DNA from: Denitromonas halophila
GTDB lineage: Bacteria > Pseudomonadota > Gammaproteobacteria > Burkholderiales > Rhodocyclaceae
Direction of reading: 5' to 3'
DNA length: 64,000 nt
Assembly (NCBI RefSeq): GCF_007625155.1
Contig: NZ_VMNK01000023.1
Coordinates: 1 to 64,000, forward strand
Under the pieces are notes generated by a model. The model ran no database searches and was not told the origin of the DNA. It worked only from the letters and a program-made list of their open reading frames with translations. A program made the translations under genes and the position numbers. Of the stretch, positions 3,754 through 10,048 are shown in pieces (within the stretch, counting starts at the first letter, position 1; each line of letters begins with the position of its first letter).

Positions 3754-5664
3754 TCAGCCCGGTCCCAAAATATGATGCCGCCGCAAGGCTTCAATCACCT
3801 GGTCCGCTGACGCCTCAACCGAATTGCCGACGGTTTTGAGTCGAACCTCCGCATCTTCCGGCGCTTCATACGGCGAATCGATACCCGTGAAGTTCTTCAA
3901 CTCACCCCGTCGCGCCTTTTTGTAGAGCCCTTTCGGGTCGCGCTCTTCGGCGACTTCGAGCGGGGTGTCGACAAACACTTCGAGGAATTCGCCCTCTTCC
4001 ACCAAGCTGCGCGCCATACGCCGCTCGGAGCGGAAGGGCGAGATGAAGGCGGTGATGACGATCAGGCCGGCGTCGACCATCAGCTTTGCGACTTCGGCCA
4101 CGCGGCGGATGTTCTCGACGCGGTCGGCGTCGGTGAAGCCGAGGTCCTTGTTCAAGCCGTGGCGGACATTGTCGCCATCGAGCAGGTAGGTGTGACGGCC
4201 CATGGCGTGGAGCTTCTTCTCGACCATGTTGGCAATCGCCGATTTGCCGGCGCCCGAGAGGCCGGTGAACCACAGCAGGCAGGGTTTCTGGCCTTTCATG
4301 CCGCCGCGCGCGGCTTTGTCGACATCCACATGCTGCATGTGGATGTTGTGCGAGCGGCGCAGGGCGAAATGGATCATGCCGGCGCCGACGGTGCTGTTGC
4401 TCAGCCGGTCGACCAGGATGAAAGCGCCGGTATCGCGGTTGTCGGCGTAGGCGTCGAAGGCGATCTGGCGGTCGAGGCTGAGGTTGCACACCGCGATGCC
4501 GTTGAGATCGAGCTTTTTGGCGGCGACATGCTCCATGGTGTTGACGTTCACCTGATACTTGATTTCGGTAACCGTCGCCCTGACCATTTTGGTGCCGATC
4601 TTGAGCAGATAGGCGCGGCCGGGCAGCAGCGGTTCGTCATGCATCCAGACGATGGTGGTTTCGAACTGATCGGCCGAGCTGGCCGGGTGTTCAGCGATGG
4701 AGATGACGTCGCCACGAGAGACATCGATCTCATCGGCCAGCGTGAGTGTGATCGACTGGCCGGCCACGGCCTGCGGCAGATCGCCATCATGCGTGACGAT
4801 ACGCGCGACGGTGCTTTCCTTGCCCGAGGGCTGAACACGGATGCGGTCGCCCGGCTGGATGACGCCGCTGGAGACGGTGCCGGCGAAGCCGCGGAAATCG
4901 AGATTGGGACGGTTCACCCACTGCACCGGCAGGCGGAACGGCGCCTTCTGCATGCGCTCTTCATCGATCTCGACGGTTTCGAGAAAGCCCATCAGCGTGG
5001 TGCCATGATACCAGGGCAGCTTGTCACTGGGGGCGATGATGTTGTCGCCCTTGAAGGCCGACAGCGGGATGAAGGTGACATCCTCGATGCCGATCCGGGC
5101 GGCAAAGTCGCGGTAATCCTCGACGATCTTGCGGTAGGTCTTTTCCGAGTAGTCGACCAAGTCCATCTTGTTGATGGCGACCACGATGTGGCGGATGCCG
5201 ATCAGCGACACCAGGTAGCTGTGGCGTCGGGTCTGCGTGAGGATGCCCTTGCGCGCGTCGACCATCAGGATGGCCACGTCGGCCGTCGAGGCGCCGGTGA
5301 CCATGTTGCGGGTGTATTGCTCGTGCCCCGGCGTGTCGGCGACGATGAACTTGCGCTTGTCGGTCGAGAAGAAGCGGTAGGCCACATCGATGGTAATGCC
5401 CTGCTCACGCTCGGCGGCGAGGCCATCGACCAACAGGGCGAAATCGATATCCTCGCCTTGGGTGCCGTACTTTTTCGAGTCGGCTTCAACCGCAGCCATC
5501 TGGTCTTCAAACAGCATTTTGGATTCGAACAACAGGCGCCCGATCAGGGTGCTCTTGCCATCGTCCACGCTGCCGCAGGTGATGAAGCGCAGCAGGCTTT
5601 TGTGCTCGTGGCTACGCAAGTATTCGCCAATATCGGAGGCGATGAGATCGGATACGTGGGCCAT
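3754..5664 (-). CDS. cysNC: Sulfate adenylyltransferase subunit 1 / adenylylsulfate kinase fusion (CysN-CysC)
   Basis: A 636-residue cytoplasmic enzyme with two parts. The N-terminal GTPase subunit of ATP sulfurylase has the P-loop GSVDDGKST (31-39), DTPGH (110-114) and NKMD (165-168), followed by EF-Tu-like beta-barrel domains. The C-terminal APS kinase has its own P-loop GLSGAGKS near residue 467 and the [11 protein letters not shown] segment. Together with CysD it makes APS from sulfate and ATP, then phosphorylates it to PAPS. The start ATG overlaps the cysD stop by one base (TAATG), so the two are translationally coupled. The same fusion architecture is seen in NodQ, which supplies PAPS for sulfation of Nod factors. 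No PAPS or APS reductase gene is next to it. Confidence 0.95.
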
Positions 5665-6563
5665 TAAAAGTACCCCTCCTGCTTTTTCTTTTCCATGGAC
5701 GCGGCCGAATCGTGGTCGATCACCCGCCCCTGGCGCTCCGAGGTTTTAGTCAGCAACATTTCCTGGATGATCGCCGGCAGCGTGTCGGCTTCGGATTCCA
5801 CCGCGCCGGTCAGCGGATAGCAGCCCAGGGTGCGGAAGCGCACCTTGCGCATCATCGGCACCTCGCCGGCCTTGAGCGGCATGCGCTCGTCGTCGACCAT
5901 GATCAGCGCGCCGTCACGCTCGACCACCGGGCGCTCCGCCGAGTAGTACAAAGGCACAATGGGGATGTCTTCAAGGTAGATGTATTGCCAGATGTCCAGC
6001 TCGGTCCAGTTCGACAGCGGAAACACCCGCATCGACTCGCCCTTGTGCTTGCGGGCGTTGTAGAGCTTCCACAACTCGGGGCGCTGCACTTTGGGATCCC
6101 AGCGGTGCTGCGCGCTGCGAAAGGAGAAGATGCGCTCCTTGGCGCGCGATTTTTCCTCGTCGCGCCGGGCGCCGCCAAAGGCTGCATCAAAGCCGTACAT
6201 GTCGAGCGCCTGCTTGAGCCCTTCGGTCTTCATGATATCGGTGTGGATCGCCGAGCCGTGGGTGAAGGGATTGATGTCCTTCTCGACGCCTTCGGGGTTG
6301 ATATGCACCCGCAAATCGAGTCCCAGCTCCTTCACCATCTTGTCGCGGAAGCTGTACATCTCGCGAAACTTCCAGCGCGTATCCACATGCAGCAGCGGAA
6401 ACGGCGGCTTGGCCGGGTAGAAGGCCTTCATCGCCAGATGCAGCATCACTGCGCTGTCCTTGCCGATTGAATAGAGCATGACCGGGTTGTCCGCCTCGGC
6501 CACCACCTCGCGCATGATGTGGATGCTTTCGGCCTCAAGCCGTTGCAAATGGGTCAATGTCAT
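5664..6563 (-). CDS. cysD: Sulfate adenylyltransferase subunit 2 (CysD)
   Basis: From the ATG at 6563 the protein is 299 residues, the usual CysD length, and begins [17 protein letters not shown] as CysD proteins do. The PP-loop SIGKDS sits at 32-37, and the C-terminus carries conserved [13 protein letters not shown]. It forms the ATP-PPase catalytic subunit that adenylates sulfate, with CysN driving the reaction by GTP hydrolysis. AAGAGGAC lies five bases before the ATG, a good internal ribosome binding site. Oddly, the reading frame stays open upstream for another 275 codons to 7388, through an HTH/transposase-like region. CysD may therefore be made alone, as a fusion, or both. Confidence 0.93.
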
Positions 6564-7388
6564 TGCTGTCCTCTTGCGAAAACCGTGTTGATCGTCGCTG
6601 GCCGATTGCGCCAACGCCGCATTGTTCGAATCATACGATACTGCCGGCGGTGCCTCGGGCACGCGATGGCGCACCAGCACCAGTCGCGCCGTATTGGCCA
6701 TCAGCCAGCCAGCCACCGCCCCGACCTGCGTAATATCGGCCCCCACCCAGTGCAACTGCAATGGCCGCGCAGCCAAAGCGCACATCCGTTCCAGAAAATC
6801 GACCACGGCCGGCGCCTGCAACGGCACGGCGACGATACGCCAATACAAACGGCCGCGTGGTCCACGCGCAAACAGCACGGTCCGCGTCGTGTCCAGGCGC
6901 TGCTCGCCACACCAAAAGCGCGCGCGCGAATCAAGCGCCGAGGGCTCAGCCGCATCGTGTTTGGCAGATGCGCGAAGAATGGTTTGCCAGTCGGGCGGAT
7001 CAATGCCCCAGCTCGCCACATACCGCGCCACCGTGCGCTCACCCAGGTCAATATCAAAACGACGCACCAGCCAGCGGGCAACCGCCTGATGCTGCCACAG
7101 CCCGCCCGCCTCGCCAGCGCTCTCCGGCGAGCACGCCAGAAACGCGTCGCGAATCTCGGCTTCGATCGCCTTGTCGATCGCGCGACCACTCCCGACCGGC
7201 CGCCCCTGCGGACGGACATCAACGCCCGCCCAACCTCCCTGCGCAAATGCTTTCGCCGCAGCGACAACCGTCGGCACCGACAGACCCGTCGCCGCCGCCA
7301 CCTCGGCCAGGGTTCGCCCCTGTCGGCGCAACTCAACCGCCCGACGCCGGGCCTGGTTCAGCGCATCACCGGTCAAACGCGGCGGCAT
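6564..7388 (-). CDS. HTH plus degenerate IS630-transposase-like domain, open in frame into cysD
   Basis: This 275-codon stretch has an ATG at 7388 and no stop before the cysD start, so on paper it forms the N-terminus of a 574-residue CysD fusion. Residues about 25-55 form a helix-turn-helix ([17 protein letters not shown]), and residues about 65-130 look like the second winged HTH of IS630-type transposases ([14 protein letters not shown]). The following part has the shape of the DDE domain, but the expected acidic positions read WCGEQ and VGADITQ, and the third catalytic motif is gone. It is therefore not an active transposase. It could be a domesticated DNA-binding regulator of the divergent sulfate genes, or a decaying insertion that kept its frame. 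Upstream at 7389-7528 is an AT-rich divergent promoter region shared with cysQ. Confidence 0.6.
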
Positions 7389-7528
7389 GGATCATTCAAT
7401 CGAAGTGGCATAGTGATATATTAAACATTTATTTGCTCCAACTCAGTGTTAAATAATTAACTGCAGCGTCGCCAACAGGGCACTTCTGCATTAACCTGCC
7501 CCATCAACCCCGCCCACGGAGTCCCAGA
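7389..7528. promoter_or_regulatory. AT-rich divergent intergenic region between the cysD-side unit and cysQ
   Basis: A 140-base gap separates two units transcribed away from each other. About 7410-7460 is strikingly AT-rich compared with the GC-rich flanks (TTAAACATTTATTTG and TTAAATAATTAA). It must hold promoters for both directions and possibly an operator, but no sigma70 boxes with good spacing were recognised. Confidence 0.45.
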
Positions 7529-8296
7529 ATGCTTGATCGCCTCGCCCTGCTCGACCGCCTGATACCCATCGTCCGCGATGCCGGCGAGCTGATCATGACG
7601 ATCTACGGATCGGACTTCTCGGTGCGCGGCAAAACCGATCAATCACCGGTCACCGAAGCTGACGAGCGCGCCGAAGCCTTGATTCTGCCCGCCCTCGCGG
7701 CGCTGCTGCCCGGCACCCCCATCGTGGCCGAAGAAGCCGCCGCCGCCGGCAAGATCCCGAGTGTTGGAGAACGTTTCTGGCTGGTCGACCCGCTCGACGG
7801 CACCAAGGAATTCATCAGCCGCAACGGCGAGTTCACCGTCAATATCGCCTTGATTGAAAACGGCCAGCCGACCGTCGGTGTCGTGTTGGCGCCCGCGCTG
7901 GGCCGCCTGTTTGCCGGTGCGGTCGGCCACGGTGCTTTCATCGAAGACACCGACGGTCGCCGTCCAATCACCGTCCGCAGCGTGCCGCCCGAAGGCCTCA
8001 CCGTGGTCGCCAGCCGCTCTCACGGCGACGCCACGGCGCTCGACGCGTTCCTGGCCGGACGCAAGGTCGCCGAACTGCGCGGCGCGGGCTCATCACTCAA
8101 GATCTGCCTGGTCGCCGCCGGTGAGGCCGATCTCTACCCGCGTCTGGGCCGCACCATGGAATGGGACATCGCCGCCGGTCATGCCGTGCTGTCGGCCGCA
8201 GGCGGGCGACTCACCCGCGCCGATGACGCACCGCTGACTTACGGCAAGCCCGACTTCGCCAATCCGCATTTTGTCGCCGCGGGCGCGGCTAACTGA
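7529..8296 (+). CDS. cysQ: 3'(2'),5'-bisphosphate nucleotidase (CysQ)
   Basis: A 255-residue inositol monophosphatase-fold phosphatase. The metal-binding signature DPLDGTKEF is at 87-95, preceded by the acidic pair in VAEEA (near 68), and a second conserved segment is WDIAAGHAVL near the C-terminus. CysQ dephosphorylates PAP, and can lower PAPS, relieving inhibition caused by sulfotransferase or PAPS reductase activity. A GGAG lies before the ATG. It is divergent from the cysD-cysNC unit and followed 18 bases later by an SLC13 permease, which fits a PAPS supply and recycling module. Confidence 0.93.
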   Translation: MLDRLALLDRLIPIVRDAGELIMTIYGSDFSVRGKTDQSPVTEADERAEALILPALAALLPGTPIVAEEAAAAGKIPSVGERFWLVDPLDGTKEFISRNGEFTVNIALIENGQPTVGVVLAPALGRLFAGAVGHGAFIEDTDGRRPITVRSVPPEGLTVVASRSHGDATALDAFLAGRKVAELRGAGSSLKICLVAAGEADLYPRLGRTMEWDIAAGHAVLSAAGGRLTRADDAPLTYGKPDFANPHFVAAGAAN

Positions 8297-8314: not shown

Positions 8315-10048
8315 ATGACCGCCACCTGGGTTCTGCTCTCACTTGCCCTGCTGGTCGCGCTGCTGGTGCATGGCCGCCTGTCTCCAGCACTGCTATTTTG
8401 TGGCTGGGCCGGTGGCTACCATCTGCTGGGCTTGATCAGCGAGCGAGAACTCCTTGAGAGCTACGCCAACCCCGGGCTGGCCGTCTTGCTCTTGTTGCTG
8501 CTGATCTCGCTGGTACTGGAACGCGCGCCGCTCATCGAGCACTTCTCGGACACGCTCCTCAAGGGCGGCGAACGCCTCGCCACCTTCCGCATGTGTCTGA
8601 TCACCGCGGCCTGCTCTGCCTTTCTCAACAACACCGCCGTGGTCAGCACCTTGCTGGGCACCATCACCCGCCAGCGCCATCACCCCGCGTCGCGCTTGCT
8701 GCTGCCGCTGTCTTACGCAGCCGTGCTAGGCGGCATCACCACGCTGGTCGGCACCTCCACCAACCTGGTGGTCAATTCCTTCGCCGAGCGCGCTGGCTTG
8801 CCATCGATTTCGATGTTCCAAATGACCACGGTCGGCGTCCCCGTGGCCCTGGCGTGCATCGTCTGCCTGACGCTCGTCGCCCGCTGGCTACCCGTGCGCA
8901 CCGGCGACGACGGTGGCCCGCGCCAGGCCTATTTTCTGGAAGCCCGCCTGACAGCCGGCTCGCCCCTCATCGGTCGCAGCATTGAAGCAAACAAATTGCG
9001 CAACCTCGACGGACTCTTCCTGGTTGAGATCGTTCGCAGCGGACGGCTCATTTCACCGGTGTCGCCCGAAGAAATCCTGCATGCCGACGATGTGCTGATC
9101 TTCACCGGTGAAGTCGAGAAAATGCAGGTCATCGACCGCTTCCCCGGCTTGCAGGTGTTCGGCACGCGCGCCGATGATCTGCTGCGGTCAAATCTGGTTG
9201 AAGTGGTGATTTCCAGCGATTCGGAACTGGCGAACCGGACCTTGCGCGAGGTCGATTTCCGCACCATGTTCGATGCGGGCGTAGTCGGCATCCGCCGTGG
9301 CGACAAACGCCTGACCGGTCAACTCGGCCGGATACCGCTCCGGGTCGGAGACGCCTTGCTATTGGCAGCTGGCGCCGATTTTGCACAGCACCGCAATCTG
9401 GCACGCAACTTTCACCGTGTGGGCGGCGCCCCGCTGCACCCGAAGCTCACCAATCCGCAAACCCGCTGGGTGGTCGGCGGATTCGCCAGCGTGATCATCG
9501 CTGCCGCCACCAACGTGCTGCCCCTGTTTGCTGGGCTGCTGCTCTTGCTTGGCGCCTTTCTGGCCAGCGGCCTGCTCTCGATGGCTGAGATTCGTCGGCG
9601 CTTTCCGTTTGAACTGATTCTGGTCATCGGCGCCGCCCTGGCCATCGCACGCGTGCTCGAATCCTCGGGCGGCGCAGCGATCATCTCGGACGTTGTCGCC
9701 CATGTTTTTGGCGATCTGGGCGTGTGGGGCGCGTTCATCGGCATCTACCTGATGACCGTGGTCCTCACCGAAGTAGTCACCAACAACGCTGCCGCCGCGC
9801 TGGCCTTCCCCATTGCGCTGTCGACCGCCCACGCCTTCGGCGCCGACCCCACCCCGTTTGTGATGCTGGTGGCCTATGGCGCCAGCGCCGGCTTCCTGAT
9901 CCCCTTCGGCTATCAAACCCACCTGATGGTCTACTCGCCAGGGCGCTACCGGGTGATGGACTTCGTGCGCACCGGCACACCGGTCGCGCTGGTCTATGGA
10001 ACGGTGGTACTGCTGCTGGTGCCGCGGGTGTTTCCGTTCTTCCCCTGA
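8315..10048 (+). CDS. SLC13-family anion permease with TrkA-C/RCK domains, putative sulfate transporter
   Basis: A 577-residue inner membrane protein. Hydrophobic helices at both ends resemble the DASS/ArsB fold, including the re-entrant-type NNTAVVSTLLGT segment near 110 and TNNAAAALAFP in the second half. About 200 central residues form two soluble RCK_C-type repeats (SPLIGRSIEANKLRNLDGLF and the related LANRTLREVDFRTMFDAGVV region). Proteins of this architecture are often sulfate/anion permeases. The position directly after cysQ, and opposite cysD-cysNC, makes sulfate the best guess, but the sequence alone does not fix the substrate. It ends four bases from the convergent deacetylase gene, with no obvious terminator between them. 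Confidence 0.8.
   Translation: MTATWVLLSLALLVALLVHGRLSPALLFCGWAGGYHLLGLISERELLESYANPGLAVLLLLLLISLVLERAPLIEHFSDTLLKGGERLATFRMCLITAACSAFLNNTAVVSTLLGTITRQRHHPASRLLLPLSYAAVLGGITTLVGTSTNLVVNSFAERAGLPSISMFQMTTVGVPVALACIVCLTLVARWLPVRTGDDGGPRQAYFLEARLTAGSPLIGRSIEANKLRNLDGLFLVEIVRSGRLISPVSPEEILHADDVLIFTGEVEKMQVIDRFPGLQVFGTRADDLLRSNLVEVVISSDSELANRTLREVDFRTMFDAGVVGIRRGDKRLTGQLGRIPLRVGDALLLAAGADFAQHRNLARNFHRVGGAPLHPKLTNPQTRWVVGGFASVIIAAATNVLPLFAGLLLLLGAFLASGLLSMAEIRRRFPFELILVIGAALAIARVLESSGGAAIISDVVAHVFGDLGVWGAFIGIYLMTVVLTEVVTNNAAAALAFPIALSTAHAFGADPTPFVMLVAYGASAGFLIPFGYQTHLMVYSPGRYRVMDFVRTGTPVALVYGTVVLLLVPRVFPFFP

Follow-up and report, generated by a model that had tools for sequence, protein, structure and literature searches.

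Domesticated transposases are well known in eukaryotes, TldR originated from TnpB, and NadR is a trigger enzyme that also acts on DNA. Among metabolic enzymes, PutA and BirA likewise act on DNA and control their own operon (PMC6978683; this and the other papers cited here were available as partial text), and host transcription factors have been recruited from mobile elements, such as Xre/Ner-SfsB and antitoxins (review PMC8987985) and the RNA-guided TldR factors (PMC13418256). DDE goes unmentioned in the available part of that review, and the available part of a paper that mentions CysD and fusions (PMC10853773) does not describe a CysD-transposase fusion. In the open-licence literature searched (on CysD fusions, domesticated bacterial transposases, and comparators) such a fusion is undescribed, although it may be described elsewhere, and no precedent was found there for a bacterial DDE transposase serving as the DNA-binding part of a housekeeping enzyme. 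Here we analyze a gene in a 64,000-nt stretch of Denitromonas halophila DNA (contig NZ_VMNK01000023.1, positions 1 to 64,000; the window) that joins an IS630-derived helix-turn-helix (HTH) domain in frame to CysD, the small subunit of ATP sulfurylase.

We propose, with a probability of about 0.6, that a domesticated transposase of the Tc1/mariner type (IS630 family) makes CysD an autoregulatory enzyme, its DNA binding and sensed signal being predicted from sequence. An IS630-family transposase would have lost its catalytic residues and C-terminal part and become the N-terminal, DNA-binding half of CysD. The transposase-derived HTH would hold the fusion at motifs in its own promoter, common to the divergent cysQ and a transporter gene, and the CysD half would meanwhile partner CysN(C). 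Binding probably responds to the condition of the sulfate-activating complex (free versus CysNC-bound CysD, or occupancy by ATP or adenosine 5'-phosphosulfate, APS) and so may tune the output of a module for 3'-phosphoadenosine 5'-phosphosulfate (PAPS) to need; for the sensed signal, the simplest proposal is the state of the CysD-CysN complex. An earlier reading of the window made from the letters alone (the sequence-only reading) had raised a domesticated transposase that regulates a sulfate gene. Domestication is well supported by in-frame conservation in relatives, purifying selection, loss of the catalytic triad, a clade that is mostly fusion-only, and a stand-alone gene at the corresponding place of the operon. 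The case for regulation is circumstantial, drawn from promoter motifs that match the architecture and from the divergent cysQ; DNA binding, the sign of regulation (it may repress or activate), and the sensed state are inferences.

The frame is open throughout and, as the sequence-only reading had it, carries the N-terminal domain into an intact CysD without a stop (Table 1). The CysD half matches TIGR02039 over its full length (E = 1.7e-156), scores above the cut-offs of both TIGR02039 and NF009214, and has its CysN partner encoded downstream; the N-terminal 275 residues lie outside the coverage of both models. These 275 residues matched the winged-HTH family HTH_29 with 30.9 bits against a cut-off of 28.1 (E = 3e-07). 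Residues 14-132 matched the NCBIfam IS630 transposase model at 49 bits (E = 4.5e-13), under that model's 100-bit cut-off. The same model scored 32.6-79.4 bits in each of four other long forms compared with it and 52.0 bits in a stand-alone form, and one short form was unmatched. The AlphaFold2 model built from the N-terminal alignment (28 sequences; predicted local distance difference test, pLDDT, 83.6) contains two HTH regions in tandem (HTH1 and HTH2) followed by an RNase H-like core, the layout of an IS630-family transposase, and then a linker predicted with low confidence. The full-length fusion (35 sequences, pLDDT 73.2) gave the same elements. The top PDB matches of the N-terminal domain in Foldseek were TnsB, Mos1, and retroviral integrases (E = 1e-5 to 1e-3); the template modelling (TM) scores were low, 0.22-0.27 on the query, because, we believe, the domains are placed differently. 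A PDB sequence search with the domain profile gave no match.

The sequence-only reading had described two HTH-like regions and a transposase core lacking its three acidic residues, and this is confirmed: G, V, and S occupy the catalytic columns of the window protein. Representatives were picked manually so that near-duplicates stayed out; there were 34 long loci for motif work, 30 for catalytic and linker counts, and 23 pairs for substitution rates. A complete triad was present in none of the 30 fused representatives, nor in the stand-alone L123. Acidic residues occur at the first, second, and third column in 5, 6, and 2 of the 30, respectively; L030 retains two of the three, and an NPxE context was seen in none. 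An aspartate in the linker of the window protein aligns one place before the third catalytic column, outside any NPxE motif. The N-terminal domain is single copy in the window genome (searched at E 0.001), and none of the three inverted-repeat pairs of at least 14 nt in 5400-7700 flanks it.

The fusion was then sought in relatives, as the sequence-only reading had advised. In the genus, the domain is in frame with CysD in 8 of 10 genomes, own included, and both genomes without it are 86% complete. In the family, 31 of 297 genomes, own included, have the fusion in frames of at least 575 aa, all of which were read and found to hold CysD; contig ends truncate three further loci, and in G011 only HTH1 is present. 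The other domain matches among 79 family genomes are mostly transposase-length frames of about 350 aa. Two long frames were rejected as fusions: the 638-aa frame of G508 is a transposase with a run-on frame, and in the 688-aa frame of G043 an unrelated open frame precedes plain CysD. CysD of the fused type was found at E 1e-110 in 71 of the 297 genomes; when the search results are matched by hand, at least 32 of these have the long fusion, 6 a short form, and 1 HTH1 only. In named genomes, one frame runs through both HTH domain and CysD at 35 of 37 loci (34 recognized by pattern and L067 by eye), and in L037 and L053 the frame is open to the contig end. The fusion thus occurs in many beta- and gammaproteobacteria. 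The genera include Denitromonas, Methyloversatilis, Azohydromonas, Comamonas, Achromobacter, Allopusillimonas, Pusillimonas, Oceanimonas, Pseudomonas, and Halopseudomonas. A class-wide sample gave matches in 25 of 369 genomes, among them the new fusions L121, L126, and L128; besides L123, the other loci read there were mostly transposases. Domain identity across genera and classes is 26-46%. In the Methyloversatilis group (g6), 10 of 12 genomes have one fused and one shorter-framed CysD copy, 83-89% identical to the query; G125 and G282 lack a fused copy, and the two shorter copies read (L157, L158) are without the domain. Locus L156 was dropped because it did not parse. Because the same in-frame arrangement recurs in genus and family, the fusion is not a product of chance.

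Selection was assessed from the ratio of nonsynonymous to synonymous rates (dN/dS, NG86) in 23 pairs of relatives, another check that the sequence-only reading had proposed. The ratio was 0-0.20 in the HTH part (the first ~115 residues), 0.12-0.51 in the core (22 pairs), 0-0.13 in the CysD part (23 pairs), and 0.10-1.05 in the linker, with the pair L054/L065 undefined for core and linker. The HTH part is under purifying selection. In most pairs it changes less rapidly than the core, and the HTH1 recognition helix is invariant across 28 sequences. The 30 representative linkers, 1,949 codons in all, contain no stop; the product of their shuffle probabilities is 10^-14.7 if the linkers are independent, which they are not fully.

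Other versions of the protein divide the domain differently. In several families a short form, of which 16 loci were read, carries an N-terminal part of ~185 aa without HTH1 on CysD. This part is homologous to HTH2 plus the core (hhalign probability 86.6, E = 4.5e-6, columns 99-252); an earlier long-form profile search had matched 1 of 5 short loci (L089), and the long-form hidden Markov model run without filters matched all 11 others (E = 6e-4 to 3e-11). In the CysD tree the short forms make one clade (support 100/99), and plain forms are nested in the tree. In the fusion L144 (G011:C25:26700-29600), a natural minimal version, HTH1 (about 62 aa) is joined through a linker to CysD. In L123 (G1044), a single lineage, the domain is a separate 268-aa gene directly before plain cysD.

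The window gene also has the good internal ribosome binding site that the sequence-only reading had seen, AGAGGA, which ends 5 nt upstream of the CysD ATG. Since this start persists, the 574-aa and 299-aa products are likely both made in the window's strain and lineage, as judged from the sequence. Under one rule, 27 of 41 long-type fusions have a start with a Shine-Dalgarno (SD) sequence at CysD, as do 10 of 24 plain cysD genes but none of the 16 short loci. Nine of the 16 have no ATG, GTG, or TTG within 15 codons of CysD, so that CysD can be made there only as the fusion, and three have an ATG but no SD. With no usable separate start, the fusion must be the working enzyme in most short-form loci; in G452 the short-form fusion is the only CysD found at E 1e-60. 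HTH domain and enzyme thus share one chain, the arrangement expected of a trigger enzyme, both in the single frame of the window and in most short-form loci.

The evidence for an operator lies upstream of the gene, where two boxes were recognized (Table 1). An exact match to WAATKTTTAAYA occurs once in the 4.4-Mb window assembly, at the promoter of the fused gene. In eight genomes of the genus the blocks TAA.TATTTAA and GTTTAATATA are invariant and 28 nt apart by our count, with the spacer otherwise variable. TGTTTAA, on either strand, lies upstream in 20 of 34 long representatives (shuffle mean 1.0, maximum 5). By architecture, it was found at 21 of 35 loci with HTH1, L144 among the 21, versus 1 of 16 short loci and 0 of 24 plain cysD genes, and TGTCGCA or its complement at 13 of 16 short loci versus 2 of the 35. 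The short form has an inverted pair TGTCGCA-N~81-TGCGACA, 87-89 nt apart, at 13 of 16 loci, exactly in 8 and with a single mismatch in 5 (L089, L091, L092, L093, L098, L146, L152-L155, and L161-L163), compared with a mean of 0.06 in shuffles allowing up to 2 mismatches. The promoter motif therefore tends to follow the HTH retained. The pair spans the promoter, and in several loci its second arm falls in the first codons; it is possibly a paired operator or a relic of the miniature inverted-repeat transposable element (MITE) type. We give about even odds to a further proposal, suggested by these sequence patterns, that the paired-type DNA-binding halves have been partitioned: HTH1 lineages would use TGTTTAA and HTH2-plus-core lineages TGTCGCA/TGCGACA 88 bp apart, and sulfate activation would be autoregulated by interchangeable transposon-derived readers. 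Such taming would be the bacterial counterpart of Pax-type domestication. Two further ideas on the motifs were dropped. Of a broad regulon the window genome showed no sign, with a single exact match to WAATKTTTAAYA and 13 one-mismatch sites, near the 10 of the reversed-pattern control, and the promoter motif as left terminal inverted repeat of the ancestral insertion sequence had no convincing match by eye among the ends of IS630 relatives (TATTAACCCGGCAATCAAATAG in L114/L115, or similar in L117).

Several observations weigh against an autoregulatory fusion. Exact TGTTTAA is missing in 14 of the 35 HTH1-bearing loci, where variants in Methyloversatilis, Azohydromonas, and Pseudomonas were recognized by eye only, and the two HTH1-bearing loci with TGTCGCA and the one short locus with TGTTTAA break the partition. 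Of 11 short-form genomes searched in full, five carry the exact pair at the fused gene (G511, G625, G452, G516, G373), three only elsewhere (G487, G630, G658), and three nowhere (G421, G632, G535); it also occurs, as chance matches, in all three genomes tested that lack the short form (G000, G505, G356) and in the reversed control. TTTAAT inside the motif agrees in five of six positions with a -10 box, and part of the motif may therefore be core promoter. A sigma-70 scan of 7340-7560 found no match. The Fisher and shuffle figures overstate independence because the loci share ancestry. A CysB-like protein is encoded in 33 of 37 tested genomes, fused or plain, so that another regulator exists. 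Finally, many CysD proteins of the fused type function without the domain, and in the CysD tree (L020 left out for want of a pattern match) the 39 long fusions need 7 changes, of which starred branches force 2, a pattern consistent with an old origin of the fusion and repeated loss or transfer.

Much of this suits the main rival explanation. On that view the domain no longer binds DNA and serves the sulfate-activating complex structurally or allosterically (through protein-protein contacts, localisation, or stability), and the promoter motifs are those of another regulator or of the core promoter. To the -10-like TTTAAT, the common CysB, and the long loci without exact TGTTTAA it can add that the core is kept, though the HTHs alone should suffice for DNA binding, and that the short form lacks HTH1 entirely. 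We nevertheless consider it unlikely: a structural part would not readily account for HTH residues that change more slowly than the core around an invariant recognition helix, for motifs that switch with the HTH kept and are absent upstream of plain cysD, or for the existence of HTH1-only and separate-gene forms.

Less probable still is that the long form acts mainly as separate products, the internal-start CysD being the enzyme and the read-through fusion a low-abundance autoregulator or by-product. The greater share of long-type fusions than of plain cysD genes with an SD-equipped start agrees with it, and synonymous divergence (dS) is lower in the linker than in CysD in 15 of 22 defined pairs, as it would be if a ribosome-binding site were maintained there; the latter argument is weak because the Methyloversatilis pairs, which have no internal SD, behave in the same way. 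The long fusions read carry no stop between domain and CysD, however, so the domain itself is never made without CysD, and such a start is lacking in 14 of 41 long-type fusions as well as in every short locus. A functionless, decaying insertion that stayed in frame by chance, the other explanation offered by the sequence-only reading, could point to the lost catalytic residues and to single linkers that are open by chance with P of 0.02-0.75. It is refuted by the purifying selection on the HTH part, with dN/dS well below 1, by recurrence across genera and classes at low identity, and by short-form loci that mostly lack a separate CysD start, and we leave it hardly any weight. The outcome that the same reading had set against a functional fusion, i.e., no extension in relatives and stops or frameshifts in sister strains, is not what was found.

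Table 1. Features of the fused gene and its neighborhood in the window
Feature	Coordinates	Strand	Basis
CysNC, GTPase subunit + APS kinase	3754..5664	-	NF004035, 1074 bits; 1-nt overlap with cysD stop
Fused gene, IS630-derived DNA-binding domain + CysD, 574 aa + stop	5664..7388	-	open frame; same in-frame fusion in relatives
CysD, 299 aa, intact (residues 276-574)	5664..6563	-	TIGR02039, NF009214
Internal Shine-Dalgarno AGAGGA for separate CysD	6569..6574	-	CysD ATG at 6561-6563
Linker, about residues 246-276, probably disordered	6564..6653	-	pLDDT <50 over most of linker
RNase H-like DDE core without catalytic residues, residues 156-241	6666..6923	-	AlphaFold2, Foldseek, catalytic columns
HTH2, residues 73-126	7011..7172	-	AlphaFold2 model; HTH_33/HTH_32 matches under cut-off
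HTH1, residues 7-55, invariant L36 S37 P39 T40 A43 A44 K46	7224..7370	-	AlphaFold2 model, 28-sequence alignment, Pfam HTH_29
Conserved promoter motif AAATGTTTAATA, candidate operator box 2	7419..7430	-	cross-locus conservation
GTTAATTATTTAACA, box 1	7447..7461	-	TTTAA 28 nt upstream of TTTAA of box 2 (own count)
cysQ, divergent neighbor	7529..8296	+	TIGR01331, E = 5.5e-84
DASS/SLC13-type transporter, putative sulfate	8315..10048	+	CitMHS, TrkA_C; TIGR00785 under cut-off

A divergent cysQ adjoins the fusion in 28 of 37 named loci. The window genome has a second sulfate cluster on another contig (L132, G000:C26:289000-303500), encoding CysB, a sulfite/nitrite-reductase-like protein, CysH, plain CysD, and CysN without kinase; its CysD is 49% identical to the CysD part of the fusion. 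In addition to this conventional cluster there is thus a second module, able to make PAPS, to which the fused gene with CysNC belongs. Replacement of CysB by the fusion was considered and is not general, given the frequency of CysB-like proteins; none was found at E 1e-30 in G452 and G487 (short form) or in G839 and G1042 (long form), and cys regulation may therefore differ in these four. Positions 10053-34970 of the window hold an exopolysaccharide cluster of the exosortase (EpsH) type, with genes for exosortase, Asn synthase, glycosyltransferases, Wzy, deacetylases, and Wzz/export proteins, and the fused module adjoins it. In L126 and L128 the fusion directly follows a gene for a putative KpsC-type capsule export protein. 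Sulfation of the exopolysaccharide was considered as the purpose of the module, and no Sulfotransfer_1 or _3 match was found in the window genome. In Vibrio vulnificus, PAPS, an intermediate of sulfate assimilation, is reported in the available part of one study to serve as a messenger that controls cyclic di-GMP and biofilm (PMC6113621). It is therefore plausible that a PAPS module next to an exopolysaccharide cluster should be under separate control. The fusion also points to an unrecognized layer of control for this second, PAPS-type sulfate-activation module. Since stand-alone, long-fused, HTH1-only, and HTH2-only forms are on offer together with candidate operators, the steps by which a transposase was tamed, and the joint evolution of reader and operator, can be tested directly.

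Compared with ordinary CysD (TIGR02039/NF009214), the fusion shares the C-terminal 299 aa, and the 275-aa N-terminal domain is peculiar to it. With IS630-family (Tc1/mariner-type) transposases (such as L100, L112, and L114; Mos1 in PDB) it shares the tandem HTH followed by an RNase H-like core, by both profile and fold matches; unlike them, it has neither a complete triad nor the NPxE-bearing C-terminal part, is single copy without flanking inverted repeats, and is joined to CysD. Its proposed likeness to the trigger enzymes PutA and BirA, as known from the part of PMC6978683 available, would be control of its own operon, with the difference that its enzyme and DNA-binding domain are unrelated to theirs and the latter is of transposase origin. 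Like the recruited factors described in the available parts of PMC8987985 and PMC13418256 (TldR), it would be a mobile-element protein tamed into a regulator; unlike those of phage repressor, antitoxin, or TnpB source, it stems from a DDE transposase and is joined to an enzyme.

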